Source: Variovorax paradoxus
GTDB lineage: Bacteria; Pseudomonadota; Gammaproteobacteria; Burkholderiales; Burkholderiaceae_C
Direction: 5' to 3'
Length of the DNA stretch: 64,000 nt
Assembly: GCF_009498455.1 (NCBI RefSeq)
Contig: NZ_CP045644.1
Coordinates: 6,513,001 to 6,577,000 of the forward strand
Part shown: in pieces, positions 47,844-62,937 of the stretch
How the letters are laid out: each line of letters opens with the position of its first letter
Numbering within the stretch: position 1 is the first letter of the stretch
Translations under genes and position numbers: made by a program
The notes under the pieces: generated by a model
Told to the model about the DNA's origin: nothing
The model's database searches: none
Seen by the model: the letters and a program-made list of their open reading frames with translations, nothing else

Positions 47844-49604
47844 TCAGCCGAAGGTGAACGCGTAGGCCTGCGCGTCGGCGTCGAGAAACTCGATCTCGAA
47901 CAGGCGCTCCCTGCCGCCACCCGACTGCCGCACCAGCTGGTACAGCTTCTGCGCATCGACCACGCCGCGGCCCTGGGCATCGGTGTCGGCGCCGTGGTCC
48001 GCCAGCGGCGGCTGGCCGTCGACCCGCACCGTGAAGCGGACCGGTTTTCCGTCGGCCATCGGCCCCAGCACCAGATGCAGGTCGCGCGCTTTGAAGCGGT
48101 ACGCGATGCGGCCGTTGGCGTGGTTCAGCACGGCACGCTCGGCCTCCACGGTCCAGTCGCCACCCAACGCCCATTGGTTGGTGCGCAGCATTGAAGCCGC
48201 GGACTCGTAGGCCTTCGCACGGTCACGCGCGATGCCGCCGGGTGACGCAAAGCCGTGCGCGCGGGCGTGGCCCAGGTAGGTTTCGCCGGACTGCGCCGGC
48301 TCGGCGCCGGGCGCGGCCTGCGTGCCCTGCCCCAGCGGCGCCACCAATCCACCGGCGACCTGGGCCTGTCCGGCCTCGGCCAGCAGCTGCTGGATGACCT
48401 GCTCGGCCTTGTCGTAGCGGTTCTCGCCGAACTGGTGATGGCGGATGCGCCCCTGCGCATCGACGAAATAGAACGCCGGCCAAGCCTGGTTGTCGAAGCC
48501 GCGCCAGATGGCAAAGTCGTTGTCCAGCGCCACCGGGAACCCGATGCCGAGGTCTTTCACGGCCTTGCGCACGTTGGCCGGGTTCTTCTCGAACGCGAAC
48601 TCCGGCGCATGCACGCCGAGGACGACCAGGCCCGCGTCCTTGTACTTGTCGGCCCACGCGCGCACGTAAGGCAGCGTGCGCAGGCAGTTGATGCACGAAT
48701 AGGTCCAGAAGTCGATCAGCACGACCTTGCCGCGCAAGGCCTCGGACGTGAGCGGCGGCGAGTTGATCCACCCGGTCGCGCCGGCCAGCGACGGCAGGTG
48801 GCCTTCGACGCGGAGGTTGCGCGCGGGCACCGGCGCCGGGCGGGCGTCCGAGACGCGCACGAAGCCGGCGTCTGCGCGCTGCGCCTGCGGCGTGTCTTTG
48901 CGGAGCGTGTCCACCAGCGCCTGCTCCAGGGTCGACGTGGTGCCCAGCGACAGGCGCGCGAGCCAGCCGGTGTCCAGCCCCAGCGCGATGGCGGCCACGC
49001 CCGCCAGCACCGCCGCGCCGGCGACGCGCCGCACGCCTTCGCCGGTCGGCAGCGTGCGCTTCAGCGCCGCGAGCAACCGGCCGCCTGACAGCAGCGCCAC
49101 CGCGAGCGACGTGCACGCGCCAACCGCATAGGCGAGCAGCAGCAGCGAAGTGCCGACGCTCGCGCCGTTGAGCGCCGCACCCGTCAGGATCAGTCCGAGG
49201 ATCGGCCCCGCGCACGGCGCCCAGAGCAGGCCCGTGCCCACGCCCAGCCACAGCGGCGAAAACACCGAGGCCTGCGGCCCCTCGGACAGGCGCAGGCCCA
49301 GCGCCACCAGCGGCCGGCTCAGGCGGTCGGCCACGCGCGGGAACAGCAGCGTCGCACCGAACAGCGCGAGCAAGGCCATCGCGGCATAGCGCCCGTATTC
49401 GTTGAGCGTGACGATCCAGCCACCGCCCACCGCCGCCAACGTGGCGACCACGGCAAAAGCCAGCGCCATGCCGACGAGCATCGGCAGGCCGTGCGAGCGG
49501 AACGGGCGGTCGGCGCGCGCGAACACGAAGGGCAGCACCGGCAGGATGCAGGGGCTGAGGATCGTGAGCACCCCGCCCAGGTAGGCGATGAAGAGGATGA
49601 GCAT
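47844..49604 (-). CDS. DipZ-like thiol-disulfide transport protein (CcdA-thioredoxin-carbohydrate-binding-like fusion)
   Basis: 586 residues in three parts. A CcdA/DsbD-like membrane domain (about 1-220) has Cys in LSPCILPVLPF and LWAPCAGPILG, which pass electrons across the membrane. A periplasmic TlpA/thioredoxin domain (about 260-415) has active site SCINC in DFWTYSCINCLRTL. A C-terminal beta-sandwich (about 450-586) resembles the carbohydrate-binding-like module of mycobacterial DipZ. It should move reducing power to periplasmic thiols. It lies 27 bases downstream of the histidine kinase gene on the same strand and may be the last gene of the ohr-kinase unit. Confidence 0.87.
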   Translation of the reverse strand: MLILFIAYLGGVLTILSPCILPVLPFVFARADRPFRSHGLPMLVGMALAFAVVATLAAVGGGWIVTLNEYGRYAAMALLALFGATLLFPRVADRLSRPLVALGLRLSEGPQASVFSPLWLGVGTGLLWAPCAGPILGLILTGAALNGASVGTSLLLLAYAVGACTSLAVALLSGGRLLAALKRTLPTGEGVRRVAGAAVLAGVAAIALGLDTGWLARLSLGTTSTLEQALVDTLRKDTPQAQRADAGFVRVSDARPAPVPARNLRVEGHLPSLAGATGWINSPPLTSEALRGKVVLIDFWTYSCINCLRTLPYVRAWADKYKDAGLVVLGVHAPEFAFEKNPANVRKAVKDLGIGFPVALDNDFAIWRGFDNQAWPAFYFVDAQGRIRHHQFGENRYDKAEQVIQQLLAEAGQAQVAGGLVAPLGQGTQAAPGAEPAQSGETYLGHARAHGFASPGGIARDRAKAYESAASMLRTNQWALGGDWTVEAERAVLNHANGRIAYRFKARDLHLVLGPMADGKPVRFTVRVDGQPPLADHGADTDAQGRGVVDAQKLYQLVRQSGGGRERLFEIEFLDADAQAYAFTFG

Positions 49605-49631: not shown

Positions 49632-50996
49632 TCAGCGGGCGGGCGTGGCGGCCAACGCCAGCCGCGCCTCGAGCCCGCCTTCGGCGCGGTTATGCAGCGT
49701 GAGTTCGGCGCCCATGGCCATGGCCAACTGGTGCGCAATGGCCAGGCCCAGGCCCGTGCCGCCGGTGCTGCGATTGCGCGAACTTTCGACGCGGTAGAAG
49801 GGCTTGAGCACCGCGTCGAGTTCGTCGGGCGGAATGCCCGGGCCGTTGTCGCGCACGCTCACCACGAGGCGGCCGCCCTCGCCTTCGGCCTGCACGCGCA
49901 GCGTCACGTCGGTGCCGAACTTCAGCGCGTTGTCGATCAGGTTCATGAGGATGCGGCGCAGCGCGTTCGGACGGCTCACGATCGGCGCGCCGGCGCGGCC
50001 TTCGAGCCGCACCTGCTGGCCCACGTCTTCGTAGTCGGCCACCATGCTTTCGAACAGCGCATCGGCGTCGATGCGCAGCGGCGGCTCGGTGGCGCCGTGG
50101 AGCGTGCGCGCATAGGTCACGCCTTCGCGCACCAGCGCGTTCATCGCGTCCAGGTCCTGGCGAAATTTCTCGCGGTCGTGGGTGTCGTCCATCAGGTCGG
50201 TGCGCAGGCGCATCCGCGTGATGGGCGTCTGCAGGTCGTGCGAAATGGCCGCCAGGATCTCGACGCGCTCCGACATGTAGCCCGCGATGCGCTGCTGCAT
50301 GGCGTTGAAGGCGCGCGCCGCGTGCGCCACTTCGGTCGGGCCCTCTTCCGCCAGCGTGCGGCTCTTCAGGTCGGGGCCGAGCTGGTCGGCCGCCGCGGAC
50401 AGCTGCGCGAGCGGCCGTGTCACCAGCCGCACTGCGACCCAGGCGCACACCGCCAGCACCAGCAGCTGGCCCACCAGCAGCCACATCACCCAGCCCGACA
50501 CCGGCATGCCCACGCGCATGGCGTGCACGACCACGGACGACCCGTCGCCCAGCCGCACCTCGATCTGCAGGCCCTCGGGCGGCCAGGCCACCTCGCCGAC
50601 CTTGACGACGGGGAACGGGCGCATCGCATCGACGATGGCCGCCGCAAACTGCTGCGACGCCTGCGAGGCGGGCGCGCCGCCCTGCGCATTGCCGCCCAGC
50701 ACGAAGCGGTAGTTGCGCCGCTCCAGCTTGTCGAGCCAGCCGGTGCGCTCCGCCGCGGGGAGCCGGTCGAGGATGGCGACCGAGCTCGCGATGTCGCGCT
50801 CGATGCCGATCATCATCAGCTCGCGAAGCGCCATGTTCCGCTCGTAGCGGATCGCGGCGAAGGTGAGCAGCTGCGCGATCGCCAGGCCCACCACGATGAT
50901 CAGCGTCACGCGGGCATACAGCGAGCCGGGCAGCAGCCGGCGCCAGCGGGGCGCGGTACCGGATGGGTTCGCAACAGGGTTCGCGGAAGTGGACAT
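49632..50996 (-). CDS. Sensor histidine kinase (EnvZ-like)
   Basis: 454 residues. Two transmembrane helices (about 30-48 and 168-190) bracket a periplasmic sensor of about 115 residues. A HAMP linker (190-245), phospho-acceptor H253 in AAISHDLQTPITRMRLR, and an ATPase domain with NLIDNALKFG, DNGPGIPPDEL and TGGTGLGLAIAHQLA complete the kinase. It is downstream of ohr by 48 bases. Its partner regulator is transcribed divergently on the other side of ohr, an uncommon split. A sensor for oxidative or membrane stress is suggested by that setting. Confidence 0.92.
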   Translation of the reverse strand: MSTSANPVANPSGTAPRWRRLLPGSLYARVTLIIVVGLAIAQLLTFAAIRYERNMALRELMMIGIERDIASSVAILDRLPAAERTGWLDKLERRNYRFVLGGNAQGGAPASQASQQFAAAIVDAMRPFPVVKVGEVAWPPEGLQIEVRLGDGSSVVVHAMRVGMPVSGWVMWLLVGQLLVLAVCAWVAVRLVTRPLAQLSAAADQLGPDLKSRTLAEEGPTEVAHAARAFNAMQQRIAGYMSERVEILAAISHDLQTPITRMRLRTDLMDDTHDREKFRQDLDAMNALVREGVTYARTLHGATEPPLRIDADALFESMVADYEDVGQQVRLEGRAGAPIVSRPNALRRILMNLIDNALKFGTDVTLRVQAEGEGGRLVVSVRDNGPGIPPDELDAVLKPFYRVESSRNRSTGGTGLGLAIAHQLAMAMGAELTLHNRAEGGLEARLALAATPAR

Positions 50997-51044: not shown

Positions 51045-51464
51045 TCACACCAGGTGGATGGCAACGTCGATGTTGCCTCGGGTTGCCTTGGAATAGGGGC
51101 AGGTCTGGTGCGCGGCCTCGGTGAGGGCCTGCGCCACCTCTCGGTCCAGGCCCGGCAGGCTCACGTTCAGGCGCGCCTGCAGGAAGTAGTCGCCGCCCGC
51201 CGTGCCCAGGTCGACCTCGGCATCGACGGTCAGGTCGGGCGGCAGTGCGACCTTCATCTTGCCGGCCGCCTTGCCCATCGCGCCGATGAAGCAGGCCGAC
51301 CAGCCGGCCGCGAACAGCTGCTCGGGGTTGGTGCCGGTGCCGGCGCTGCCGGGCGACGAGAGCTTGATGTCCAGGCGGCCGTCCGAGCTGCGCGCCTCGC
51401 CGTCGCGGCCTCCCGAGGAGGTGCGGGTCTTGCCGGTGTAGAGGACTTTGTCGATGCGGGTCAT
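51045..51464 (-). CDS. ohr: Organic hydroperoxide resistance protein (Ohr/OsmC family)
   Basis: 139 residues. A thiol peroxidase that reduces organic and fatty-acid hydroperoxides. Reactive C58 is in FAAGWSACFIGAM and resolving C122 in HQTCPYSKATRGN; the N-terminal half has KVLYTGKT. AAGGA lies nine bases before the ATG. Usually ohr is controlled by a neighbouring MarR-type OhrR; none is present here, and instead a two-component system brackets it. Its upstream DNA holds promoter module 1, shared with two other genes. Confidence 0.94.
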   Translation of the reverse strand: MTRIDKVLYTGKTRTSSGGRDGEARSSDGRLDIKLSSPGSAGTGTNPEQLFAAGWSACFIGAMGKAAGKMKVALPPDLTVDAEVDLGTAGGDYFLQARLNVSLPGLDREVAQALTEAAHQTCPYSKATRGNIDVAIHLV

Positions 51465-51501
51465 GAAGGTTCCTTGGGTGCAGGAGGGTTGAAAACGGAC
51501 G

Positions 51502-51578
51502 GATTGTTGGGCCGCTTTCCCCCTGCCGGATCGCCTTCTGTATGCCTGTGTATCTGCGCCGGAAACCCACACACTACG
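51502..51578 (-). promoter_or_regulatory. Shared promoter module, copy 1 (upstream of ohr)
   Basis: In the direction of ohr, a 37-base conserved core (51541-51577) ends AGATACACAGGCATA. Then come exactly 32 variable bases and AACAATCCG (AACAATC is 51502-51508 in reverse). The core contains ATACA-N5-ATACA, a direct repeat with 10-base period like tandem OmpR-family sites (the last A lies just past the core). AACAAT could act as a -10 element. Confidence 0.75.
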
Positions 51579-51657
51579 TTTCCAACGGCGCCCCCCTGCA
51601 CCCCGCCGGAACGCTACATTGCGGCTGCGGCGCCGTGCCGCCACTGTCCACCCTGCC

Positions 51658-52398
51658 ATGACGCCCAAGACCTCCGACCACATCCTCATCGTCGACGACG
51701 ACCGGGACATCCGCGAACTGCTCACCACCTACCTGGTGAAGAACGGCTTGCGCGTGGTCTCGGTGCCCACCGGGCGCCACATGCGCGCCGCGCTCGAGGC
51801 GTCGGGGCCTTTCGACCTGATCATCCTGGACCTGATGCTGCCCGGCGAAGACGGGCTCACGCTGTGCCGCGACCTGCGCACCGGCAAGTACAAGGCCACG
51901 CCCATCCTCATGCTCACCGCGCGCAGCGAGGAAGCCGACCGCATCCTGGGCCTGGAGATGGGCGCCGACGATTACCTGGCCAAGCCCTTTTCCGCGCGCG
52001 AGCTGCTGGCGCGCATCCGCGCCGTGATGCGGCGCACGCGCATGCTGCCGCCGAACATGGGCAGCGTCGAGCCCTCGCAGCAGCTGGGATTCGGGGAGTG
52101 GCAGGTCGACACCGTGGCGCGCCACCTGATCGACGATGCGGGCGTGATGGTGGCGCTGAGCGGCGCCGAGTACCGGCTGCTGCGCGTGTTCCTCGACCAC
52201 CCGCAGAAGGTGCTCAGCCGCGACCAGCTGCTGAGCCTGACGCAGGGGCGCGAAGCCGAGCTCTTCGAGCGCTCCATCGACCTGCTCGTGAGCCGTCTGC
52301 GCCAGCGCCTGCGCGACGATGCGCGCGAGCCCCGCTACATCAAGACCGTGCGCAGCGAAGGCTACGTGCTCGCTTCGGCGGTCGAAGCGAGAGACTGA
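51658..52398 (+). CDS. OmpR-family response regulator
   Basis: 246 residues. The receiver domain (about 8-120) is complete: acidic pocket VDDDRD, phospho-acceptor D58 in LIILDLMLPGEDG, and K109 in DDYLAKPFS. The winged-helix domain (about 145-240) ends RSEGYVLAS. It is divergent from ohr and the kinase gene and is the obvious partner of that kinase. It is the leading candidate to bind the direct ATACA repeats in the three promoter modules nearby. The 5' codon choice at 51658 gives MTPKTSDHILIVDDD. Confidence 0.93.
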   Translation: MTPKTSDHILIVDDDRDIRELLTTYLVKNGLRVVSVPTGRHMRAALEASGPFDLIILDLMLPGEDGLTLCRDLRTGKYKATPILMLTARSEEADRILGLEMGADDYLAKPFSARELLARIRAVMRRTRMLPPNMGSVEPSQQLGFGEWQVDTVARHLIDDAGVMVALSGAEYRLLRVFLDHPQKVLSRDQLLSLTQGREAELFERSIDLLVSRLRQRLRDDAREPRYIKTVRSEGYVLASAVEARD

Positions 52399-52507
52399 CC
52401 GACGCCACGCTCTGGCACTGCGTCGGGTGGCGCAGCTCGTGCGCGAACCCGCCTGCAAAGAACAGCAGTGCGAACCAGAGCTTCTTGAATCCGCGAGAGC
52501 GCGTCAT
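52340..52507 (-). CDS. Small secreted-looking protein behind promoter module 2
   Basis: 55 residues starting MTRSRGFKKLWFALLFFAGG, then FAHELRHPTQ: a basic start and hydrophobic core like a signal peptide or short membrane anchor. AAGGAAA lies nine bases before the ATG. Its 3' part overlaps the end of the response regulator gene on the opposite strand by 59 bases, and the C-terminal RPPKRARSLRCARS may only reflect that overlap. Support comes chiefly from the promoter module and ribosome site, which match those of ohr. It is too short for standard length cut-offs. Confidence 0.5.
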   Translation of the reverse strand: MTRSRGFKKLWFALLFFAGGFAHELRHPTQCQSVASVSLSLRPPKRARSLRCARS

Positions 52508-52547
52508 GGGGGTTTCCTTCGGGCGATGCGTGAGTGGATGACGGGCG

Positions 52548-52624
52548 GATTGTTGGCCGCCTTTTCACCGCACAACGGGCATTGCGTATGCCTGTGTATC
52601 TCCACCTGAAATCGACACACCACG
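52548..52624 (-). promoter_or_regulatory. Shared promoter module, copy 2 (upstream of the small protein)
   Basis: In the gene direction the core (52587-52623) ends AGATACACAGGCATA and matches copy 1 at about 31 of 37 positions. After exactly 32 bases comes AACAATCCG (52548-52554 reversed for AACAATC). The distance from core to start codon is 79 bases, against 76 for ohr. Confidence 0.72.
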
Positions 52625-52661
52625 TTGCGTTGAGGCGGCCTCGCACGCCTGCGATTGAAAT

Positions 52662-52737
52662 TTAGTGTGGCCGAAACCGGCGCAGATACAGAGGCATACA
52701 CAAGCCGGTCAGGGAGCGGACTTCGCGCCGAACAATC
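52662..52737 (+). promoter_or_regulatory. Shared promoter module, copy 3 (upstream of the exported hydrolase)
   Basis: The core (52662-52698) ends AGATACAGAGGCATA and matches copy 1 at about 29 of 37 positions. It again has 32 bases before AACAATC (52731-52737). The hydrolase ATG is 72 bases past the core. Copies 2 and 3 face away from each other across 37 bases. Confidence 0.72.
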
Positions 52738-52770
52738 GCGCCGTCAATCCCTTCGAACCCAGGAATTTCC

Positions 52771-53793
52771 ATGACCACATCGCTCTTTCTGCCGCGCCGT
52801 TCGTTCCTCGGCAAGGCCGCACTCGGCCTCGCCGCCACGCAGCTGACGTCGATCGTTCCCGCCTTCGCCCAATCTGCCAGCACCGGCAGCACCAAGCGCC
52901 TCGAGCCCCTGAAGAGCATCGACGCCGGCAGCCTGCGCATTGGCTACTACGAGGCCGGCCCGGCCGACGGCGCGCCGGTGATTCTTCTGCACGGCTGGCC
53001 CTACGACATCCACATGTTCGTCGACGTTGCACCGCAGCTGGCCGCCGCGGGCTTTCGCGTCATCGTGCCGTACCTGCGCGGCTACGGCACCACGCGCTTC
53101 CTGTCGGCGGACACGCCGCGCAACGGGCAGCAGTCGGCGGTGGCCGTCGACATCGTTGCGCTGATGGATGCGCTGAAGATCCCCGTCGCCACCGTGGCCG
53201 GCTGCGACTGGGGCGCGCGCACCGCGTGCATCATGGCCGCGCTGTGGCCGGAGCGCGTGAAGGCGCTGGTGTCGGTCAGTGGCTACCTCATCGGCAGCCA
53301 GGAGGCCGGCAAGGCGCCGCTGCCGCCGCAGGCCGAGCTGCAGTGGTGGTACCAGTACTACTTCGCGACCGAACGCGGCCGTGCGGGCTACGAGAAGAAC
53401 CGCCACGACTTCGCCAAGCTCATCTGGCAGATCGCCTCGCCGAAGTGGAACTTCGATGCCGCCACCTTCGAGCGCAGCGCCGTGGCCTTCGAGAACCCCG
53501 ACCACGTCGCGATCACGGTCCACAACTACCGCTGGCGCCTCGGCCTGGCCGAGGGTGAGGCGAAGTACCAGGCGCTGGAGAACCGGCTCGCCCAGGCGCC
53601 GGTGATCGGCGTGCCCACCATCACGCTCGAAGGCGACGCCAACGGCGCGCCGCATCCGCAGCCGAGCGCGTACGCGAAGAAATTCTCGGGCCGTTACGAG
53701 CACCGGCTGGTCAGCGGCGGCATCGGCCACAACCTGCCGCAGGAAGCGCCCGAGGCGTTTGCGAAGGCGGTGATCGACGTGGCGCGCGGGTAA
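52771..53793 (+). CDS. Tat-exported alpha/beta hydrolase (epoxide-hydrolase/haloalkane-dehalogenase type)
   Basis: 340 residues. A twin-arginine signal (PRRSFLGKAALGLAATQL, ending AFA before QSAS) directs it to the periplasm. The hydrolase domain has HGWPYDIHMF, PYLRGYGTTRF and the nucleophile elbow GCDWGAR with D146. An aspartate nucleophile there marks the epoxide hydrolase and dehalogenase branch rather than serine esterases. The late His is in GGIGHNLPQEAPE. Expression is presumably driven by promoter module 3, linking it to ohr and a stress response. Substrate unknown. Confidence 0.88.
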   Translation: MTTSLFLPRRSFLGKAALGLAATQLTSIVPAFAQSASTGSTKRLEPLKSIDAGSLRIGYYEAGPADGAPVILLHGWPYDIHMFVDVAPQLAAAGFRVIVPYLRGYGTTRFLSADTPRNGQQSAVAVDIVALMDALKIPVATVAGCDWGARTACIMAALWPERVKALVSVSGYLIGSQEAGKAPLPPQAELQWWYQYYFATERGRAGYEKNRHDFAKLIWQIASPKWNFDAATFERSAVAFENPDHVAITVHNYRWRLGLAEGEAKYQALENRLAQAPVIGVPTITLEGDANGAPHPQPSAYAKKFSGRYEHRLVSGGIGHNLPQEAPEAFAKAVIDVARG

Positions 53794-53807: not shown

Positions 53808-54746
53808 TCAGTCGGCAGTGAGTGCCTGCGCCTGCACCTGCGCGTTCGCCTGCGGCTCGGCGTCGAAGCGCTCGAACCCGCAGTAGCACAGGAAGTGGCG
53901 GTTGGCGGCGCGGCCGAACAAGGTCATGCCGAGCTTGCTGGCCAGCTCGTGCCCCATCGCGGTGACGCCGTTGCGCGAGACGATGATCGGCACGCCCATG
54001 TGGGCCGACTTCATCACCATCTCGCTGGTCAGCCGACCCGTGGTGTAGAAAATCTTGTCGCCGCCGTCGATGCCGTGCACCGCCATCCAGCCGGCAATGG
54101 AATCGATGGCGTTGTGCCGGCCGACGTCTTCCACGAACACCAGCATCTCGGTGCCGCGGAACAGCGCACAGCCGTGCACCGAGCCCGCATGCCGGTGCAC
54201 GCTGTGGCGCGATTTCATGAGTTCGAGAATGCGCAGCAGCGTGCCCTGCGCGATGCGCGCCGACTGCGCGGTCGGCAGCCGCACGGCGCCGATCTGGGCC
54301 ATGGCATCGCCGAACACGGTGCCTTGTCCACAGCCCGTGGTCACGACCCGGTGCGCGGTTTTTTCGGCAAGGTTGGCGATGCCCGCGTGCGTTTTCACCG
54401 CCGCCGCCTCCACGCTCCAGTCGACGTCGATGCTCTCGACGTCGCTCGCGCGCTGCACCAGGTTCTGGTTGAGCAGGTAGCCCAGCACCAGCAGCTCGGG
54501 CGCGGCGCCCAGGGTCATGAGCGTCACGAGTTCGCGCTTGTCGACGAAGACGGTCAACGGCCGCTCCGCCGGGATGTCGATGTCGCGGCGCTCGCCGTGC
54601 TGGTCGACGATCTCGATGCGGCGCAACAGCGGGCCGCGCGCCGGGTTCAGGCGCGGCGCGTCGGCGCGCCGGGGCAGCGCCACGGCGTCGAAAGCCAGCG
54701 GTGCTTCGTTCGCGTCGTCTGCTTCGTCTTCATCAGGTGGGGCCAT
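53808..54746 (-). CDS. fdhD: FdhD, sulfur carrier for formate dehydrogenase maturation
   Basis: 312 residues. FdhD passes sulfur from IscS to the molybdenum cofactor of formate dehydrogenase. Motifs: LLVLGYLLNQNLV, the Cys loop VVTTGCGQGTVFGD, HRHAGSVHGCALF, VEDVGRHNAIDSI and TTGRLTSEMVMKSA. The loop has a single Cys where the E. coli protein has CxxC. The first 35 residues are an acidic and Ala-rich extension. It is divergent from the formate dehydrogenase operon that it serves. Confidence 0.94.
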   Translation of the reverse strand: MAPPDEDEADDANEAPLAFDAVALPRRADAPRLNPARGPLLRRIEIVDQHGERRDIDIPAERPLTVFVDKRELVTLMTLGAAPELLVLGYLLNQNLVQRASDVESIDVDWSVEAAAVKTHAGIANLAEKTAHRVVTTGCGQGTVFGDAMAQIGAVRLPTAQSARIAQGTLLRILELMKSRHSVHRHAGSVHGCALFRGTEMLVFVEDVGRHNAIDSIAGWMAVHGIDGGDKIFYTTGRLTSEMVMKSAHMGVPIIVSRNGVTAMGHELASKLGMTLFGRAANRHFLCYCGFERFDAEPQANAQVQAQALTAD

Positions 54747-54840
54747 GCAGGAATGCTACGACACCGCGCTGGTGCGGCATGCCCGGGTTTTCGCGTCGGC
54801 GATCGAGGGGTACTGCGCGCAGACCCGCGTGCCATCGGCT

Positions 54841-55449
54841 ATGGTTCGGCCCATGCTCTCCTCGGACACCCCCGCGCCAGCCACCGCGCCCACGGGCCGC
54901 CCGACGCTCGACGTCGCGGTGGTCATGCGCCGCGAACGCCTGCATGGCCCGTCGAGCCACTGGCAGCCCTGGCGCTGGACGCTCGACAGCGTGCAGCCCG
55001 ACGAGCCCGGCTTCGGCACCGGACCGCGCCTGCTGCGCGACGACGGCGGCGCGCAGCAGTGGCTGCACCCCGGCTTCAAGGTCGAGCTGTTCCGCGACGA
55101 GGCCGAGGGCTACCACCTCAACGCGATCACGCCGACGCCGTGCTGGTTCGTGCTGTGGCGCATGGACGAGGAAGCGACGCTGTCCACGGAACCCATTCCG
55201 CGCCCGGTCGTGGTCACGCTCAGCTACTACGAGGCCGGGCGCTGGCTCGATGCGCAGGAAACCGTCGAGCAGGTGCCGGCCCCCGCGGAGGTGGTCGACT
55301 GGGTGCGCGCCTTCGTCGACGAGCACTACGTGATCGAGCCCAAGCGCCGCCGGCGGCCCGAGAGCTTCCGGTCGCTGGTCGACCGTTTCGGCAACGCCGC
55401 GAGCGTGTCGACCGAGAAAAAGCGCGGACGGGGTGCGGGCGATGTCTGA
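54841..55449 (+). CDS. DUF3305 protein, first gene of the formate dehydrogenase operon
   Basis: 202 residues. The DUF3305 body runs from RPTLDVAVVMRRERLHGPS through WQPWRWTLDSV and HPGFKVELFRDEAEGYHLN to a basic C-terminus. The family occurs beside formate dehydrogenase genes in betaproteobacteria and is taken to help assembly; the role is not proven. Start is uncertain: ATGs at 54745, 54841 and 54853 are in frame. The first would overlap the divergent fdhD start and leave no promoter, so I prefer 54841 or 54853. Its 3' end overlaps the DUF3306 gene by eight bases. Confidence 0.82.
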   Translation: MVRPMLSSDTPAPATAPTGRPTLDVAVVMRRERLHGPSSHWQPWRWTLDSVQPDEPGFGTGPRLLRDDGGAQQWLHPGFKVELFRDEAEGYHLNAITPTPCWFVLWRMDEEATLSTEPIPRPVVVTLSYYEAGRWLDAQETVEQVPAPAEVVDWVRAFVDEHYVIEPKRRRRPESFRSLVDRFGNAASVSTEKKRGRGAGDV

Positions 55450-56077
55450 GGGTTTTCTCGGACGCTGGTCGCGCCGCAAGCAGGAGGTGCGCGCGGCCGA
55501 GGCCGTCGTGGAAGAGAAAGAAAAGGCGCCGCCGGCAGATGAACCCGTGCCGGCGCCCGGCCTCGTTGCGGCGCCGGCCGCCCTGCCGCCCGAAGCCGAC
55601 CCGGACGGCGCGCCGCCGTTGACCCTTGCGGACGTGGACGCGCTGGGCATCGAGTCCGACTACACGCCCTTCCTCACGAAGCAGGTGGCGCCCGAGGTCA
55701 AGAACGCGGCCTTCCGCAAGCTCTTTGCCGATCCGCATTTCAATGTGATGGACGGCCTCGACACCTACGTCGACGACTACTCCCAGTCCACCCCCGTGCC
55801 CGAGAGCGTGCTGCGCCAGATGGCCAGCGCCAAGTTCCTCAAGCTCTTCGACGAAGAGCCCAAAGACGCCGAAGCCACCGAAGACATTCCCCCTGAAACC
55901 CCCGACGCCATCGAGGCGACGGACGTGGCACAGTCCCAGGATCCCGCAACGCTTCCCAGCCCGCCGGTTGCCCCGATGCAACCCGCCAGCCAAGAAACCG
56001 ATGACCACCACGCTGATTTGCGACTGCAACCAGACGATGCCGCTCGAGCCGAAGACGCTCGGCGCGGCACTGGCTGA
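55442..56077 (+). CDS. DUF3306 protein
   Basis: 211 residues. Opens MSEGFLGRWSRRKQEVRAAE, then a Pro/Ala/Glu-rich disordered stretch (about 25-60). The conserved core is LTLADVDALGIESDYTPFL, ALRKLF-like AAFRKLFADPHFNVMDGLD, and VLRQMASAKFLKLFDEEP. A long acidic, Pro-rich tail follows and is read through the start of the next gene (77-base overlap). It always accompanies DUF3305 in formate dehydrogenase clusters; molecular role unknown. Confidence 0.82.
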   Translation: MSEGFLGRWSRRKQEVRAAEAVVEEKEKAPPADEPVPAPGLVAAPAALPPEADPDGAPPLTLADVDALGIESDYTPFLTKQVAPEVKNAAFRKLFADPHFNVMDGLDTYVDDYSQSTPVPESVLRQMASAKFLKLFDEEPKDAEATEDIPPETPDAIEATDVAQSQDPATLPSPPVAPMQPASQETDDHHADLRLQPDDAARAEDARRGTG

Positions 56078-58112
56078 AACCCTCCCGCTGCATTCGTCGC
56101 TGTGCCGCCGCGAGGCGACCTCTTTCCAGCGCGCCATCCAGTCCGGCGACGACGTCGTGGTCGCCTGCACCCAGGAAAAAAGGCTCTTCGGCGAGCTCGC
56201 CACGCAGACGCCCAACGCCACCTCGCCGATCCGCTTCATCAACATCCGCGAGACGGGCGGCTGGAGCCGCGACGCCAAAAGCGCGATGCCGAAGATCGCC
56301 GCGCTGCTGGCAGCCGCAAGCCTGCCCGAGCCCGACCCCGTCTCGACCGTGACCTACACCAGCCAGGGCCGGCTGCTGATCATCGGCCCGCTCGACGCCG
56401 CCGAGCGCGCGGCGGCGCTGGTCGGCGACACGCTCGACGTCACCCTGCTCGCGCAGGGCCCCGGCGCAGCCGGTGGCGCCCAGGCGCGCCGCTGGCCGGT
56501 GATTGCCGGCCGCATCGATTCGCTCAAAGGCTGGCTCGGCGCCTTCACGCTGCGCTGGACGCGCGACAACGCGATCGACCTCGACCTGTGCACCCGCTGC
56601 AACGCCTGCGTGGTCGCCTGCCCCGAGCAGGCGATCGGGCTCGACTACCAGATCGACAACGCACGCTGCACCTCGCACCGTGACTGCGAACGCGCCTGCA
56701 GCGTGGCCGGCGCCATCAATTTCAGCCGGGAGGCCCAGGCGCTCGATGCGGCCTTCGACCTCGTGCTCGACCTCGGCACCGCGCCGCAGATCGACTGGCA
56801 CGCGCCGCCGCAAGGCTACTTCCACCTGCCCGGCGGCGTCGCGCAGGCCGAGGGCCTGCAGACCTTGCTGCGCCTGCGCGAGCTGGTCGGCGAATTCGAA
56901 AAGCCCAAGTTCTTCGACTACAAGCAGAAGCTCTGCGCGCACAGCCGCAACGAAGTGGTCGGCTGCAACGCCTGCGTCGACGTGTGCTCGGCCCACGCCG
57001 TGAGCAGCGACCCGCAACGCCAGCGCATCGTGGTCAACCCGAACCTGTGCGTCGGCTGCGGCGCCTGCACCACGGTGTGCCCGACGGGCGCACTGGGCTA
57101 CACCTACCCGCGCGCGCCCGACCAGGGCCTCAAGCTGCGCAAGCTGCTCGGCACCTATGTCACCGCGGGCGGGCGCGATGCCGCGCTGCTGCTGCACAGC
57201 CAGGAAGGCGGCCAGGCGCTGCTCGAACAGCTCGGGCGGCAGGCACAGCTGGGCAAGGCCCAGGGCGTGCCGGCGCGCGTGATTCCGGTCGACCTCTTTC
57301 ATGCGGCCAGCACCGGCATCGACCTGTGGCTCAGCGCGATTTCCTTCGGCGCCTCGCAGGTCGCGGTGCTGTGCACGGGCGAAGAAGCGCCGCAGTACCT
57401 CGCCGCGCTCAAGCAGCAGATGAACGTCGCGCAGGCGCTGTTGCTGGGTCTGGGCTACACCGGCACGCACTTCCACGTGATCGAGGCCGATTCGCCCGCC
57501 GTGCTGGACGCCGCGCTGGCCGGCTTGCGCACGACCACGCAGCGCGTGCCGGCCACGGCCGCCCGCTTCGCCGTCGGCGCCGACAAGCGCGACCGGCTCG
57601 AGATGACGCTCGATCACCTGATGGGCGCGGCCCCTGCCCTGCAGACGCCCGGCGCACCGCTGGCTTTCGCGCTGCCGACCGGATCGCCGCTGGGCGCCAT
57701 CGCGGTCGACAAGGACAAATGCACGCTGTGCCTGGCCTGCGTCAGCGCCTGCCCGTCGGGCGCGCTGCTGGACAGCCAGAGCGCGCCGCAGCTGCGCTTC
57801 ATCGAGAAGAACTGCGTGCAGTGCGGCCTGTGCGAAATCACCTGCCCCGAAGACGCCGTCTCGCTCGTGCCGCGCCTGCTGGCCGCGCCCGAGCGCAAGC
57901 AGCAGGTGCTGCTGAACGAGGCCAAGCCCTGGGCCTGCATCCGCTGCAGCAAACCCTTCGGCACGCAGAAAGCCATCGAGGCCATGCTCGGCAAGCTGGC
58001 CGGGCATGCGATGTTCCAGGGCGAAGCGCTGGAGCGCCTCAAGATGTGCAGCGACTGCCGCGTCATCGACCTGTACAGCGCCACCAACGAAGTGAAGATC
58101 GCCCCGCTATGA
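56001..58112 (+). CDS. Large multi-cluster [4Fe-4S] ferredoxin-like protein of the formate dehydrogenase cluster
   Basis: 703 residues. Cys-rich motifs in order: CTRCNACVVACP (about 197-208), CTSHRDCERACS, CNACVDVCS (about 325-333), CVGCGACTTVCP, CTLCLACVSACP, CVQCGLCEITCP, and late CIRC and CSDC pairs. That allows at least five [4Fe-4S] clusters. There is no signal peptide or membrane helix, so it is cytoplasmic. The first 90 residues (TTTLICDCNQTMPLEPKTL) have their own Cys pair. It lies between the DUF3306 and TorD-like genes and overlaps both. Electron transfer between formate dehydrogenase and another acceptor, or assembly, is plausible. Confidence 0.87.
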   Translation: MTTTLICDCNQTMPLEPKTLGAALAETLPLHSSLCRREATSFQRAIQSGDDVVVACTQEKRLFGELATQTPNATSPIRFINIRETGGWSRDAKSAMPKIAALLAAASLPEPDPVSTVTYTSQGRLLIIGPLDAAERAAALVGDTLDVTLLAQGPGAAGGAQARRWPVIAGRIDSLKGWLGAFTLRWTRDNAIDLDLCTRCNACVVACPEQAIGLDYQIDNARCTSHRDCERACSVAGAINFSREAQALDAAFDLVLDLGTAPQIDWHAPPQGYFHLPGGVAQAEGLQTLLRLRELVGEFEKPKFFDYKQKLCAHSRNEVVGCNACVDVCSAHAVSSDPQRQRIVVNPNLCVGCGACTTVCPTGALGYTYPRAPDQGLKLRKLLGTYVTAGGRDAALLLHSQEGGQALLEQLGRQAQLGKAQGVPARVIPVDLFHAASTGIDLWLSAISFGASQVAVLCTGEEAPQYLAALKQQMNVAQALLLGLGYTGTHFHVIEADSPAVLDAALAGLRTTTQRVPATAARFAVGADKRDRLEMTLDHLMGAAPALQTPGAPLAFALPTGSPLGAIAVDKDKCTLCLACVSACPSGALLDSQSAPQLRFIEKNCVQCGLCEITCPEDAVSLVPRLLAAPERKQQVLLNEAKPWACIRCSKPFGTQKAIEAMLGKLAGHAMFQGEALERLKMCSDCRVIDLYSATNEVKIAPL

Positions 58113-58726
58113 GCCAGACCTTTCCCGCCACGTCCGCACTCGACGAGGAGGTGGCCCGGGCCGAGCTCTACGGCCTGCTGGCGCGGCTCTGGTACGCCGC
58201 GCCCGATGCCGGGTTGCTCGAAGCCTTCCAGGTGGCGCCCACCGAGGCGCCGGCCGCGGGCGGCTTTCTGGAGGAACCGTGGCGCCAGCTGGTCGGCATC
58301 GCGCGCGACACCAGCGCAGCGGCTGCATACGAGGAATACGACGCGCTCTTCGGCGGCATCGGCAAGCCCGAGGTGCTGCTGTTCGGTTCGCACTACCTCA
58401 GCGGCTTTCTCAACGACAAGCCGCTCGTGCAGCTGCGCAACGACCTCGACCGGCTGGGCCTGGCGCGCACCGAGACCACCTACGAAACCGAGGACCACAT
58501 CGCCTGCCTGTTCGAGGTCATGCGCTACCTGATCGCCGGCGAGGACGTGGCGGTGGCCAACCTCACGCAGCAGCAGGCCCTCTTCTCCAGACACATCCAG
58601 CCCTGGCTGCCGGCGCTCTGCGATGCTGTGTCGCAGCATCCGCAGGCCCGGTTCTACGCGGCCCTTGCCGTCTTCACGCGCGCGTTCGGCGATGTCGAGG
58701 CGCAGGCCTTCGACATGCTGGACTGA
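58109..58726 (+). CDS. TorD/DmsD-family redox enzyme maturation chaperone
   Basis: 205 residues, all-helical TorD type: ARAELYGLLARLWYAAPDAGL near the start, EYDALFGGIGKPEVLLFGSHYLSGF, and the typical EDHIACLFEVMRYLI helix. These chaperones hold molybdoenzyme precursors until cofactor insertion and proofread Tat signals. It overlaps the Fe-S gene by ATGA. The client is presumably the Tat-bearing alpha subunit downstream. Confidence 0.9.
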   Translation: MSQTFPATSALDEEVARAELYGLLARLWYAAPDAGLLEAFQVAPTEAPAAGGFLEEPWRQLVGIARDTSAAAAYEEYDALFGGIGKPEVLLFGSHYLSGFLNDKPLVQLRNDLDRLGLARTETTYETEDHIACLFEVMRYLIAGEDVAVANLTQQQALFSRHIQPWLPALCDAVSQHPQARFYAALAVFTRAFGDVEAQAFDMLD

Positions 58727-58727
58727 G

Positions 58728-58775
58728 AAGGTGTGAACGAACGAATGCAAGGGGTATTCAGGTTGCTCACACCTT
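58728..58775. promoter_or_regulatory. Long-spaced inverted repeat before the small Tat protein
   Basis: AAGGTGTGA (58728-58736) and TCACACCTT (58767-58775) are perfect 9-base complements 30 bases apart, in the 123-base gap between the chaperone and the small Tat gene. It may be an operator or an mRNA hairpin setting the ratio of maturation to structural genes. Confidence 0.4.
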
Positions 58776-58849
58776 GTTGCTGGTCTAGTATCCACAAGGC
58801 CGACCGGGTTTCCCCTCTCTCGTCGCGCCCAGCCACTCCTGGAGTCACT

Positions 58850-59074
58850 ATGCAGGACAGCCAAAACACCGGCATCAAGCCGGCCTCCCGCCGCGGATTT
58901 TTCATCGGTGCCGCCACCGCCGGCGCCGCCGCGGTGGCCGTCACCTCGCTGCCGAACATGGCCGAGGCGCCCGTCGCCGCCGTCGCCCCCTCTTTGCCGC
59001 CCCCGCCCGAAAACGGCGGTGGCTATTCCCTGAGCGAACACGTCAAGCGCTACTACGCCACCACGTCAGCCTGA
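58850..59074 (+). CDS. Small twin-arginine protein of formate dehydrogenase clusters
   Basis: 74 residues. GGAG lies seven bases before the ATG. A Tat motif SRRGFFIGAATAGAAAVAVT starts at about residue 13, and the short mature part is Pro-rich and ends LSEHVKRYYATTSA. It matches the small 'formate dehydrogenase region Tat target' family placed just before the alpha subunit in this operon type. It may be a structural or escort subunit; function unproven. Nine bases separate it from the alpha gene. Confidence 0.83.
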   Translation: MQDSQNTGIKPASRRGFFIGAATAGAAAVAVTSLPNMAEAPVAAVAPSLPPPPENGGGYSLSEHVKRYYATTSA

Positions 59075-59083
59075 GGAGACCCC

Positions 59084-62059
59084 GTGCTTCTGACCAGAAA
59101 ATCCCCAGGCACCGCGAGCCAGCGGGCCTCCGACGCGTCGCCCTTCGTTCACAGCTTGCGGCGCGGCCTCGCGAACGCCTTGCCGACGATGGACCGCCGC
59201 GCCTTCCTGCGGCGCTCCGGCCTCGGCGTCGGTGTGGGCCTGGCGGCCAGCCAGCTCACGCTGATCCAGAAGGCCAAGGCCGCGGACGGCCGGCCCACGG
59301 CCATCGGCGCCGGCAAGATCGAAGTGAAACGCACCGTGTGCTCGCACTGCTCGGTCGGCTGCGCGTCGGACGCCGTGGTCGAGAACGGCGTGTGGGTGCG
59401 GCAGGAGCCCGTGTTCGACTCGCCCATCAACCTGGGCGCCCACTGCGCCAAGGGCGCGGCGCTGCGTGAACACGGCCACGGCGAATACCGCCTGCGCTAC
59501 CCGATGAAGCTCGTCAACGGCAAGTACGAGCGCATCAGCTGGGACACCGCACTCGACGAAATCACCGCCAAGCTCAAGGAACTCACCAAGGCCAGCGGGC
59601 CTGACGCGATCTACTGGATCGGCTCGAGCAAGCACAGCAACGAGCAGGCCTACCTGCTGCGCAAGTTCGTGAGCTTCTTCGGCAGCAACAACTGCGACCA
59701 CCAGGCGCGCATCTGCCACTCGACCACGGTCGCGGGCGTGGCGAACACATGGGGCTACGGCGCCATGACCAATTCGTACAACGACATGCGCAATTCGAAG
59801 ATTGCGATGTACATCGGCTCGAACGCGGCCGAGGCGCACCCCGTGAGCATGCTGCACATGCTGCATGCCAAGGAAAACGGCTGCAAGATGATCGTGGTCG
59901 ACCCGCGCTTCACGCGCACGGCGGCCAAGGCCCACGAGTACGTGCGCATCCGCTCGGGCTCGGACATCGCGTTCCTGTTCGGCATCCTGCACCACATCTT
60001 CAAGAACGGCTGGGAAGACAAGCGCTACATCAACGACCGCGTCTACGGCATGGAAGAAGTGCGTGCCGAGGTCATGAGCAAGTGGACGCCCGACAAGGTC
60101 GAAGAGGCCTGCGGCGTGAGCGAAGCCCAGGTGCTGAAGGTCGCCACGATGCTCCACGAGCACCGCCCCGGCACCGTGGTGTGGTGCATGGGCCAGACGC
60201 AGCACACCATCGGCAACGCCATCGTGCGGGCGTCGTGCATCCTGCAGCTGGCGCTGGGCAACGTGGGCAAGTCGGGCGGCGGCACCAACATCTTCCGCGG
60301 CCACGACAACGTGCAGGGCGCCACCGACGTCGGCCCCAACCCCGATTCGCTGCCGGGCTACTACGGCCTGGTCGAAGGTTCGTGGAAGCACTTCGCCGCC
60401 ACCTGGGGCGTCGACTTCGAATGGATCAAGGGCCGCTTCGCATCGCCCGCGATGATGAGCAAGCCCGGCATCACGGTGTCGCGCTGGATCGACGGCGTGC
60501 TCGAGAAGAACGAGCTCATCGACCAGGACTCGAACCTGCGCGGCGTCTTCTACTGGGGCCATGCGCCCAACTCGCAGACACGCGGCCTCGAGATGAAGCG
60601 GGCCATGGACAAGCTCGACCTGCTCGTCGTGGTCGACCCGTACCCGTCGGCCACGGCCGCCATGGCCGCAATGCCCGGCCGGCCCGAAGACGCCAACGCG
60701 AATCGCGCGGTGTACCTGCTGCCCGCGTGCACGCAGTTCGAGACCAGCGGGTCGGTCACGGCATCGAACCGGTCGGTCCAATGGCGCGAGAAGGTCATCG
60801 AGCCGCTGTGGGAAAGCCGCACCGACCACATGATCATGCAGCAGTTCGCCGACCGGCTGGGCTTCGGCAAGGAGCTCAGCAAGAACTACAAGATGCAGAA
60901 GGTCAAGGGCATGGACGAGCCCGTGCCCGAAGACATCCTGCGAGAAATCAACAAGTCGTGCTGGGCTGTCGGCTACTCGGGCCAGAGCCCCGAGCGGCTG
61001 CAGGCGCACATGCGCAACATGGCCGCCTTCGACGTGCGCACGCTCAAGGCCAAGGGCTCCGTGAAGGACAAGGTCAACGGCTACGACATCTCGGGCGACT
61101 ACTTCGGACTGCCCTGGCCCTGCTACGGCACGCCCGAACTCAAGCACCCCGGCTCGCCGAACCTGTACGACCCGTCCAAGCACGTGATGGACGGCGGCGG
61201 CAACTTCCGCGCGAACTTCGGTGTGGAGCGCAACGGCAAGAACCTGCTGGCCGAAGACGGTTCCTACTCGAAGGGCGCCGACATCACCACCGGCTACCCC
61301 GAGCTCGACCACCTGCTGCTCAAGAAGCTCGGCTGGTGGGACGAACTCACCGAGGCCGAGAAGCCCAAGGCCGAAGGCAAGAATTGGAAGACCGACAGCT
61401 CGGGCGGCATGATCCGCGTGTTCATGAAGAACCACGGCTGCCACCCCTTCGGCAATGCCAAGGCGCGTGCGGTGGTGTGGAACTTTCCCGACGCGATTCC
61501 GCAGCACCGCGAGCCGCTGTACGGCACGCGCCCCGACCTCGTCGCCAAGTACCCGACCCACGACGACAAGATGGCCTTCTGGCGCCTGCCCACGCTCTAC
61601 AAGACCGTGCAGCAGAAGAACATCGCCGACAAGATCGCCGAGAAATTCCCGTACATCATGACCTCGGGCCGGCTCGTGGAATACGAAGGCGGCGGCGAGG
61701 AAACGCGCTCCAACCCCTGGCTGGCCGAGCTGCAGCAGGAGATGTTCATCGAGATCAACCCGAAGGTCGCGGCCGAGAAGAACATCCGCAACGGCGAGCG
61801 CGCCTGGGTGCACACGCCCACCGGCGCCAAGCTCAACGTGCAGGCCCTCGTGACCGAGCGCGTGGGGCCCGACACGGTGTTCATGCCCTTCCACTTCTCG
61901 GGCCGCTGGCAGGGCGAAGACCTGCTGGCGTACTACCCGAAGGGCGCCGCGCCCATCGTGCGCGGCGAGGCCATCAACACCGGCACCACCTACGGCTACG
62001 ACAGCGTCACCATGATGCAAGAGACCAAGACCACGGTCTGCAACATCGAGAAAGCATAA
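59084..62059 (+). CDS. Formate dehydrogenase alpha (molybdopterin) subunit
   Basis: 991 residues from a GTG with GAGGAGA seven bases upstream. A Tat signal (DRRAFLRRSGLGVGVGLAAS, about 37-56) is followed by the [4Fe-4S] site C86, C89, C93 and C121. The active site is cysteine, C211 in DHQARICHSTTVAG, where some enzymes have selenocysteine. Further text of the family includes GSNAAEAHPVSMLH, WCMGQTQHTIGNA, GGGTNIFRGHDNVQGATDVG and the C-terminal cofactor-binding TYGYDSVTM. It oxidises formate to carbon dioxide in the periplasm and passes electrons to beta and the membrane cytochrome. Confidence 0.95.
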   Translation: MLLTRKSPGTASQRASDASPFVHSLRRGLANALPTMDRRAFLRRSGLGVGVGLAASQLTLIQKAKAADGRPTAIGAGKIEVKRTVCSHCSVGCASDAVVENGVWVRQEPVFDSPINLGAHCAKGAALREHGHGEYRLRYPMKLVNGKYERISWDTALDEITAKLKELTKASGPDAIYWIGSSKHSNEQAYLLRKFVSFFGSNNCDHQARICHSTTVAGVANTWGYGAMTNSYNDMRNSKIAMYIGSNAAEAHPVSMLHMLHAKENGCKMIVVDPRFTRTAAKAHEYVRIRSGSDIAFLFGILHHIFKNGWEDKRYINDRVYGMEEVRAEVMSKWTPDKVEEACGVSEAQVLKVATMLHEHRPGTVVWCMGQTQHTIGNAIVRASCILQLALGNVGKSGGGTNIFRGHDNVQGATDVGPNPDSLPGYYGLVEGSWKHFAATWGVDFEWIKGRFASPAMMSKPGITVSRWIDGVLEKNELIDQDSNLRGVFYWGHAPNSQTRGLEMKRAMDKLDLLVVVDPYPSATAAMAAMPGRPEDANANRAVYLLPACTQFETSGSVTASNRSVQWREKVIEPLWESRTDHMIMQQFADRLGFGKELSKNYKMQKVKGMDEPVPEDILREINKSCWAVGYSGQSPERLQAHMRNMAAFDVRTLKAKGSVKDKVNGYDISGDYFGLPWPCYGTPELKHPGSPNLYDPSKHVMDGGGNFRANFGVERNGKNLLAEDGSYSKGADITTGYPELDHLLLKKLGWWDELTEAEKPKAEGKNWKTDSSGGMIRVFMKNHGCHPFGNAKARAVVWNFPDAIPQHREPLYGTRPDLVAKYPTHDDKMAFWRLPTLYKTVQQKNIADKIAEKFPYIMTSGRLVEYEGGGEETRSNPWLAELQQEMFIEINPKVAAEKNIRNGERAWVHTPTGAKLNVQALVTERVGPDTVFMPFHFSGRWQGEDLLAYYPKGAAPIVRGEAINTGTTYGYDSVTMMQETKTTVCNIEKA

Positions 62060-62068
62060 GGAATCACC

Positions 62069-62689
62069 ATGGCAAGAATGAAGTTCGTCTGCGATTCCGA
62101 GCGCTGCATCGAATGCAACGGTTGCGTCACGGCCTGCAAGAACGAGAACGAGGTGCCCTGGGGCGTGAACCGCCGCCGCGTGGTCACGCTCAATGACGGC
62201 CTGCCGGGCGAAAAGTCGATCTCGGTGGCCTGCATGCACTGCTCCGATGCGCCCTGCATGGCGGTGTGCCCCGTGCAATGTTTCTACCGCACCGACGAGG
62301 GCGTGGTGCTGCACGACAAGGACGTGTGCATCGGCTGCGGCTACTGCTCGTACGCCTGCCCCTTCGGCGCGCCGCAGTTCCCGTCGCAAGGCACCTTCGG
62401 CGCACGCGGCAAGATGGACAAGTGCACCTTCTGCGCCGGCGGCCCCGAGGCCAACGGCTCCGAAGCCGAGTTCGAAAAGTACGGCCGCAACCGCCTGGCC
62501 GAAGGCAAGCTGCCGGCCTGCGCAGAAATGTGCTCGACCAAGGCGCTCTTGGCCGGCGACGGCGACGTGGTGGCCGACATCTTCCGCACTCGCGTCGTGC
62601 ACCGCGGCACGGGCGCCGAAGTCTGGGGCTGGGGCACGGCCTACGGCTCGCAACAGGCCGGCACGCCGCCCACCGGAGGCACCAAGTGA
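62069..62689 (+). CDS. Formate dehydrogenase beta (iron-sulfur) subunit
   Basis: 206 residues. Four ferredoxin-type motifs: CIECNGCVTACKNEN, CMHCSDAPCMAVCP, CIGCGYCSYACP, and CTFC with a downstream CAEMC, predicting four [4Fe-4S] clusters. It carries no signal of its own, so it would be exported with the alpha subunit. It is shorter than E. coli FdnH and lacks a C-terminal membrane helix. Nine bases follow alpha; the next gene starts inside its stop. Confidence 0.94.
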   Translation: MARMKFVCDSERCIECNGCVTACKNENEVPWGVNRRRVVTLNDGLPGEKSISVACMHCSDAPCMAVCPVQCFYRTDEGVVLHDKDVCIGCGYCSYACPFGAPQFPSQGTFGARGKMDKCTFCAGGPEANGSEAEFEKYGRNRLAEGKLPACAEMCSTKALLAGDGDVVADIFRTRVVHRGTGAEVWGWGTAYGSQQAGTPPTGGTK

Positions 62690-62937
62690 AGCGCGCGGTC
62701 GTGATGCTCGGCGCGCTCGCTTCGGGCGCGATGCTGCTCGCAGCCTGCGGCGAGAAGCCGCAGACGAACGCCGAGGGCGTCAAGTACGACGCGGTGCCCT
62801 GGAGCGGCACCGGCACGCAGGCCAACACCGGCACGGTCTTCACCGCGCCCGGCTGGAAGGTGGGCGACAAGGCGTCGTGGGAGCAGCAGATCAAGACGCG
62901 CTCCAACGGCCAGAACGAGTACACCCGAACGAACTGA
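62686..62937 (+). CDS. Small lipoprotein within the formate dehydrogenase operon
   Basis: 83 residues from a GTG that overlaps the beta stop (GTGA) with GGAGG eight bases upstream. The lipoprotein signal ends MLLAAC with C21. The mature 63 residues contain YDAVPWSGTGTQANTGTVFT and WKVGDKASWEQQIKTRSNGQ, polar and Trp-containing, with no known domain that I recall. Placement between beta and the cytochrome subunit suggests a small accessory part of the periplasmic enzyme. Confidence 0.8.
   Translation: MKRAVVMLGALASGAMLLAACGEKPQTNAEGVKYDAVPWSGTGTQANTGTVFTAPGWKVGDKASWEQQIKTRSNGQNEYTRTN

Follow-up and report, generated by a model that had tools for sequence, protein, structure and literature searches.

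The window, a 64,000-nucleotide stretch of Variovorax paradoxus DNA, carries an ohr gene that lies between the genes of an EnvZ-like sensor histidine kinase and an OmpR-type response regulator (Table 1). Seven genes were scanned around ohr, encoding a DipZ-like protein, the kinase, Ohr, the regulator, a small ORF, a hydrolase, and an FdhD-like protein. DipZ is the name that we assume for the membrane protein encoded downstream of the kinase. Judging from gaps and direction, ohr, the kinase gene, and the DipZ-like gene would be on one transcript. Farther along, the region 53808-62937 contains the fdhD-like gene and then cysteine-rich and large redox-like ORFs; it looks like a formate dehydrogenase cluster, of which fdhD was the only gene scanned.

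The regulator matches PF00072 (101 bits) and PF00486 (75 bits), which places it in the OmpR/PhoB family. Its best NCBIfam model is OmpR (NF007005), with 247.1 bits under a cut-off of 331, so it does not classify as an OmpR orthologue; the genome's own OmpR, at 5568890, exceeds that cut-off with 421 bits. Similarly, the best NCBIfam model for the kinase is EnvZ, with 194 bits under the curated cut-off of 415. No conserved cysteine was seen in the periplasmic loop among 16 aligned kinases, and an AlphaFold model of the sensor part has a mean pLDDT of 75 and a pTM of 0.49.

Table 1. Features of the ohr locus, numbered from the first base of the window
Feature	Position	Strand	Evidence
Membrane protein, DipZ-like, with a thioredoxin domain; follows the kinase gene in the same direction	47844..49604	-	
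EnvZ-like sensor histidine kinase	49632..50996	-	HAMP, HisKA, HATPase_c
ohr, Ohr family peroxiredoxin	51045..51464	-	TIGR03561, 160.6 bits (cut-off 88.85)
ohr module (profile span)	51496..51587	-	PWM and profile matches
AACAATC, proposed -10 of ohr, 32 bases from core	51502..51508	-	-10 identity from comparison outside the genus
Core AGATACACAGGCATA of ohr module	51541..51555	-	exact match
Inverted degenerate core, which would serve the regulator's own promoter and form the second half of the ohr module	51568..51583	+	
TACATT, putative -10 for the gene of the response regulator; distance to the inverted element 33 bases	51615..51620	+	
Response regulator, OmpR subfamily, paralogue of the genome's own OmpR	51658..52398	+	Response_reg, Trans_reg_C
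55-codon ORF: start codon of a lost tlpA-like gene fused to a conserved small ORF	52340..52507	-	
Second module copy; promoter of a tlpA-like gene in relatives, gene absent here	52542..52633	-	
Third module copy, hydrolase promoter	52652..52743	+	profile matches
Alpha/beta hydrolase with N-terminal RRSFLGKA twin-arginine-like motif	52771..53793	+	Pfam; motif read from sequence

A promoter module with fixed spacing

Three copies of a promoter module are present in the window, each consisting of a core (GATACANAGGCATAC), a fixed spacing, and AACAATC, with the start codon 33-40 bases farther on. The first-pass annotation of this DNA had described a constant gap of 32 bases between core and AACAATC, which exact matching bore out. 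The 15-base core AGATACANAGGCATA occurs without mismatch at 51541-51555 (-), 52587-52601 (-), and 52684-52698 (+), and the gap is 32 bases in all three copies, giving a 54-base unit of which 8e-8 exact copies are expected in the genome from composition. The start codons, placed 72-79 bases past the core by the same annotation, lie at 76 (ohr), 79 (55-codon ORF), and 72 bases (hydrolase). Two other details stood in part. The direct repeat ATACA-N5-ATACA is found in two copies, the third reading ATACA-N5-ATACG. The spacers, which were said to share little, are indeed not fully alike; they are not wholly unrelated either, since they are pairwise identical at 16, 18, and 14 of 32 positions, compared to 9-10 for shuffled spacers. 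The 37-base cores agree pairwise at 31, 29, and 25 positions. With up to three mismatches, AGATACANAGGCATA again has three matches in the window versus 0.57 expected, a number reached in 1 of 100 shuffles. No further exact site for this core exists in the whole 7.29-Mb genome, six others having two mismatches. Likewise, a search of the genome at E ≤ 1 under stricter filters, using a profile (R1) built from 41 sites that include the three window copies, found nothing beyond these three.

Among 61 Variovorax genomes, 10 contain the strict unit, and all 12 units measure 54 bases although 50-58 were allowed. A looser search of fetched loci yielded 41 sites (alignment A1), with a spacing of 32 bases in 39 and 31 in two (26-40 allowed). 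Core columns are near-invariant across these 41 sites; because the sites were chosen for AACAAT, its invariance in A1 is by construction. When 84,980 named genomes were scanned with five spacings allowed, 36 matches in 34 stretches were returned, and 33 of the 34 stretches are from Variovorax. The spacing of the window is shared by 34 of the 36 matches, one Variovorax site is one base shorter, and the remaining match, two bases longer and located in a Lachnospiraceae metagenome bin, we take as chance. In Variovorax boronicumulans NBRC 103145 (L186), a locus 92.9% identical to the window over 6.5 kb also has three copies. The module is thus conserved before orthologous genes in related species, where its absence had been named beforehand as the observation that would speak against it. 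The label "local" that it had been given applies only to the window's genome; relatives carry copies far from the regulator, as in G014, with eight matches at E ≤ 1e-3, several of them distant. Another genome, G050, has 10 matches at E ≤ 1.

Genes behind the module

We surveyed targets using 177 profile matches at E ≤ 0.01 in genus loci, which overlap, so that counts are redundant; families were assigned by Pfam on nine representatives. In these fetched loci, the module precedes ohr, genes for a TlpA-like thioredoxin and a Tat-type alpha/beta hydrolase, and also genes for two further alpha/beta hydrolase types, an EHN-type epoxide hydrolase-like protein, cytochrome P460, DUF6130, cupin, and small proteins without a Pfam match. 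Weak matches precede the regulator, one kinase, and one DipZ-like gene; several of the weaker matches cover only the first 66-80 of 90 profile positions, with no clear AACAATC. Judging by their sequences, most target proteins start with signal-like or twin-arginine-like N termini. The Tat-type hydrolase and its module are found apart from the regulator in several genomes, and 9 of the 15 genus genomes that have no such regulator contain hydrolase relatives (50-56% identity) without the module. A hydrolase paralogue in another genome (L237, G053:C1:25991-26923) has one in-frame TGA.

This range of targets bears on another reading, in which the copies arose by recent duplication or form a dispersed repeat with no regulatory role. 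Two copies in the window lie back to back, and the spacer identity described above, somewhat greater than chance, would fit such an origin. However, the window's genome has just three matches, the spacing stays at 31-32 bases in the 41 measured sites while the spacers diverge, and in other species the unit is found before ohr, tlpA-like, hydrolase, small exported, and cytochrome P460 genes, which makes this explanation highly improbable.

The gene behind the second copy, reported as a 55-codon gene by the first-pass annotation, turned out to be a remnant of a tlpA operon, produced by fusion. The corresponding module copy in relatives is followed by a tlpA-like gene of about 190 codons and then by a small ORF, MKKLWFALLFFAGGxAHExRNPxxCQCI. 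The window has no tlpA body. Its 5' leader and start codon are the counterparts of the tlpA ones, and reading on from the ATG at 52507 leads, after a few codons, into the small ORF from its second codon (FKKLW for MKKLW), with CQC changed to CQS. L186 carries the same FKKLW form. The best tlpA-like match in the genome is the DipZ-like protein (53% identity), followed by two at 28-32%. The second module copy is thus a genuine promoter, and a deletion has altered the gene that follows it.

Pure decay of the 55-codon ORF was considered and rejected, since the comparison revealed a conserved small ORF with changes mostly at the third codon position: differences by codon position number 5581, 2522, and 9697 over all pairs of 42 sequences, a count in which relatives recur, two rows come from one frame-disrupted locus, and a few rows have no start codon. 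A protein search gave 28 matches, whose named sources are all Variovorax except for a single Caenimonas. The small protein is also encoded at 11976-12104 of L054, with the same consensus up to CQC.

The small protein follows the pattern MKKLWFALLFFAGG-x-[AS]HExRNP-xx-CQC, in which a segment resembling a histidine kinase H-box comes directly after the only hydrophobic stretch. The HisKA H-box model (PF00512) matched 7 of 17 members at E ≤ 10, the best scoring 16.9 bits (E 0.0066) under a cut-off of 26.9 bits, so the protein does not classify as an H-box protein. Two other families gave a match to a single member each (E 0.063 and 0.13). In a control, none of four hand-scrambled sequences matched, and neither did two of six real members that were repeated. 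A signal-peptidase site at GGxA would also account for these residues, and the H-box resemblance is a lead, not a result. We give a small chance to the idea that this lineage-specific protein, exported or membrane anchored, is a built-in feedback part of the regulon. It might act as a mimic of the kinase phospho-acceptor or a dimer-disrupting peptide, or, cleaved at GGxA, as a periplasmic Cys-x-Cys redox partner of the TlpA-like thioredoxin, and would have been rewired in the window lineage by fusion to the tlpA start and the change from CQC to CQS.

Promoter architecture and association with the regulator

Since AACAAT had been a selection criterion in A1, we assessed its role as a -10 element on 25 cores from outside the genus, which were found without requiring it and several of which come from sister species. 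A TATAAT-like hexamer (at least 4 of 6 positions) lies 31-33 bases on in 16 of the 25, with 5 of 6 positions in five of them. Such a hexamer occurs at 1.2% of random positions, and 11 other three-base offsets gave 0 of 25 at 10 and 3 of 25 at one (43-45). Twelve of these cores sit in loci found by R1, whose columns include AACAATC, which leaves 13 whose choice did not depend on the profile: the hexamer is present in 10 of the 12 and in 6 of the 13 fetched by the regulator protein alone (p 6e-9). As -10-like hexamers take its position outside the genus, AACAATC is most likely a -10 element. With AACAAT at -12 to -7, the core would therefore lie at about -59 to -45. A conserved -35 hexamer was not seen in the A1 spacer.

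The core has tandem half-sites about 10 bp apart, which is the arrangement of OmpR-type sites and agrees with the 10-base repeat proposed in the first-pass annotation; the regulator is predicted to bind there. Two other identities for the module were set aside. An extracytoplasmic-sigma promoter, with the core as -35 and AACAATC as -10, would have far too long a gap at 32 bases, and TATAAA or TACATT occupy the same position as AACAATC; a transcribed leader element does not fit a core upstream of the -10.

The upstream half of the module is itself an inverted, degenerate core, GTGAAACGTAGTGTGT in most sites and TGTATTCGCAAGTATC in some. Scored as an inverted core, it averages -4.8 over the 41 sites, compared to -12.6 (sd 0.7) for shuffles and -12.9 in forward orientation. 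Four loci (L024, L025, L027, and L039) have a close inverted core before ohr, GATACTTGCGAATACAAA, unlike the usual ACACACTACGTTTC. We examined the stretch that separates ohr from the divergent regulator gene in 13 loci. In nine of them, the window included, the distance from the inverted element to a TACATT is 31-33 bases. L030, L041, and L042 have a separate element of the GATACTT type at 31-32 bases from TACATT, and L044 has a weak one at 30 bases; overall, 12 of the 13 loci place an element of the inverted-core type 31-33 bases from this -10-like hexamer of the regulator gene. This suggests a two-way promoter with autoregulation of the regulator gene, the site being bidirectional in that its inverted copy would serve the regulator's own promoter.

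Across genus genomes the module follows the presence of the regulator, in line with the link to the neighboring OmpR-like gene drawn in the first-pass annotation. The regulator (E ≤ 1e-80) is present in 46 of 61 genomes. Of these 46, 43 also carry the module (E ≤ 1e-3), whereas none of the other 15 does, their best E being 0.035. In the 299 genomes of the family, the regulator (E ≤ 1e-90) was found in 38, the module in 13, and both in 12, which corresponds to 12 of 38 genomes with the regulator versus 1 of 261 without it. The Fisher values for genus (p 1.2e-11) and family (p 3.8e-11) overstate independence because of the shared ancestry of the genomes and a contribution from loss of the entire locus, genus genomes without the regulator being also without this ohr. 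The three genus exceptions, with a regulator and no module at E ≤ 1e-3, all have diverged regulators (G019, 78%; G056, 76%; G052, 70%). Outside the genus, 26 of 34 regulator-bearing genomes (62-84% identity) are without the module at this threshold, and therefore either the site diverges or the targets change. The sole family genome with a module and without such a regulator (G122, best match 51%) is from a sister genus. There (L148, 1240-1574, -), the module leads into a tlpA-like start, an early stop, and the apparent end of a DipZ-like gene, and no close tlpA-like gene was found elsewhere in the genome (best 30%); this is a probable scar from deletion of the entire regulator locus.

The same data speak to whether the module is a true promoter class read by another factor, i.e., the genome's own OmpR, another OmpR paralogue, or an extracytoplasmic sigma factor, with the 51658 regulator merely linked to it. 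Five further OmpR-like regulators are encoded in the genome (E ≤ 1e-55), and many module copies are physically linked to the regulator gene, so that co-loss would be expected. Against this, genus modules at E ≤ 1e-3 occur only in regulator-bearing genomes even when on contigs without the regulator, elements of the same type precede regulator or kinase genes in relatives, and -10-like hexamers 32 bases away do not fit the -35/-10 pair of a sigma factor. We consider such a reading rather unlikely.

The module-bound ohr is not the only one in the genome. No MarR-family ohrR is present among the seven genes scanned around it, which gives no ground for classing it as OhrR regulated, and about 4.5 Mb from it on the contig the genome encodes a second full Ohr at 2038340 (L231, G000:C1:2038340), which has an OhrR-like MarR gene next to it, as is ordinary for ohr. 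For that MarR gene OhrR is the best model, with 134.6 bits on the 96 residues tested, under the full-length cut-off of 200. All 15 regulator-less genus genomes have an Ohr (47-60% identity to that of the window), with an OhrR-like gene beside 14 of 16 Ohr matches and no module at E < 1 in these Ohr loci. Since a separate ohrR-like/ohr pair exists, the module-bound ohr is apparently a separate paralogue under separate control, which gives substance to the earlier contrast with the usual control by OhrR.

A proposed regulon and its relation to known systems

From the module, its spacing and conservation, the genes behind it, the position of the -10 hexamer, and the association with the regulator, all of them read from sequence, we propose as the likely explanation that the module is an activator-dependent sigma70-type promoter bound by the 51658 regulator, whose output would be a regulon of the module-bound ohr together with exported redox proteins and hydrolases. 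Envelope oxidant stress would activate the EnvZ-like kinase, which would probably phosphorylate the regulator. The regulator would then bind the tandem core about 32 bases upstream of a -10 hexamer that varies by promoter (AACAAT, TATAAA, AAGAAT, or TACATT), as well as the inverted degenerate core farther upstream, whose copy between ohr and the regulator gene would drive the regulator's own promoter. Binding would activate, rather than repress, the ohr-kinase-dipZ genes, the regulator gene, and the exported thioredoxin and hydrolase genes. The output most likely counters oxidative damage in the cell envelope and, judging from the targets, the signal may be organic peroxide or reactive chlorine-type oxidants.

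Activation is argued from position, and the genome does contain an OhrR-like gene and a second ohr; the regulator might instead repress via the module, or control ohr in part with OhrR as the real control. However, the core would lie well upstream of the -10, at positions where activators of the OmpR-type family bind, the spacer shows no conserved -35 hexamer, and the OhrR-like gene sits far away beside its own ohr. We find these variants improbable, and favor activation by the 51658 regulator.

This would provide a sequence-defined, testable regulon for a two-component system in Variovorax, a common plant- and soil-associated genus, together with a predicted binding-site model that has a fixed distance to the -10. 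It would tie a second, non-OhrR-linked ohr to envelope thioredoxins (TlpA-like and DipZ-like), cytochrome P460, cupin, DUF6130, and exported hydrolases, bring several families whose function is unknown together in one response, and reveal a conserved small protein without a known family.

We found no published description of this regulon in the openly licensed literature, including sections of PMC7464077, PMC7380067, PMC3013089, and PMC7950407. The earlier view that it is of a new kind nevertheless went too far: regulons of the OmpR type with tandem sites are known, and osmC offers a precedent for two-component control. The regulon is new and apparently undescribed, but belongs to a known kind, that of OmpR-type two-component systems, and it would probably serve against envelope redox stress.

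A section of PMC7380067 describes E. coli OmpR as binding two tandem 10-bp half-sites. The present system resembles the OmpR-EnvZ regulon in its best-matching models, in the 10-base periodicity of the core, and in having sites upstream of the -35 region. It differs in that both proteins score under the model cut-offs and an OmpR above the cut-off is encoded elsewhere in the genome, and also in its redox and hydrolase targets, its inverted second site, and its fixed 32-base distance to the -10. With ohr genes under the MarR-type repressor OhrR it shares the enzyme, Ohr (TIGR03561), whereas here no MarR gene is found among the seven genes scanned and the OhrR-linked ohr is a separate locus. In E. 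coli, osmC is controlled by the RcsB-RcsC phosphorelay, as cited in PMC3013089. The two cases are alike in that a gene for a peroxidase of the OsmC/Ohr superfamily is under two-component control. They differ in the type of regulator, RcsB being NarL-type while that of the window is OmpR-type.
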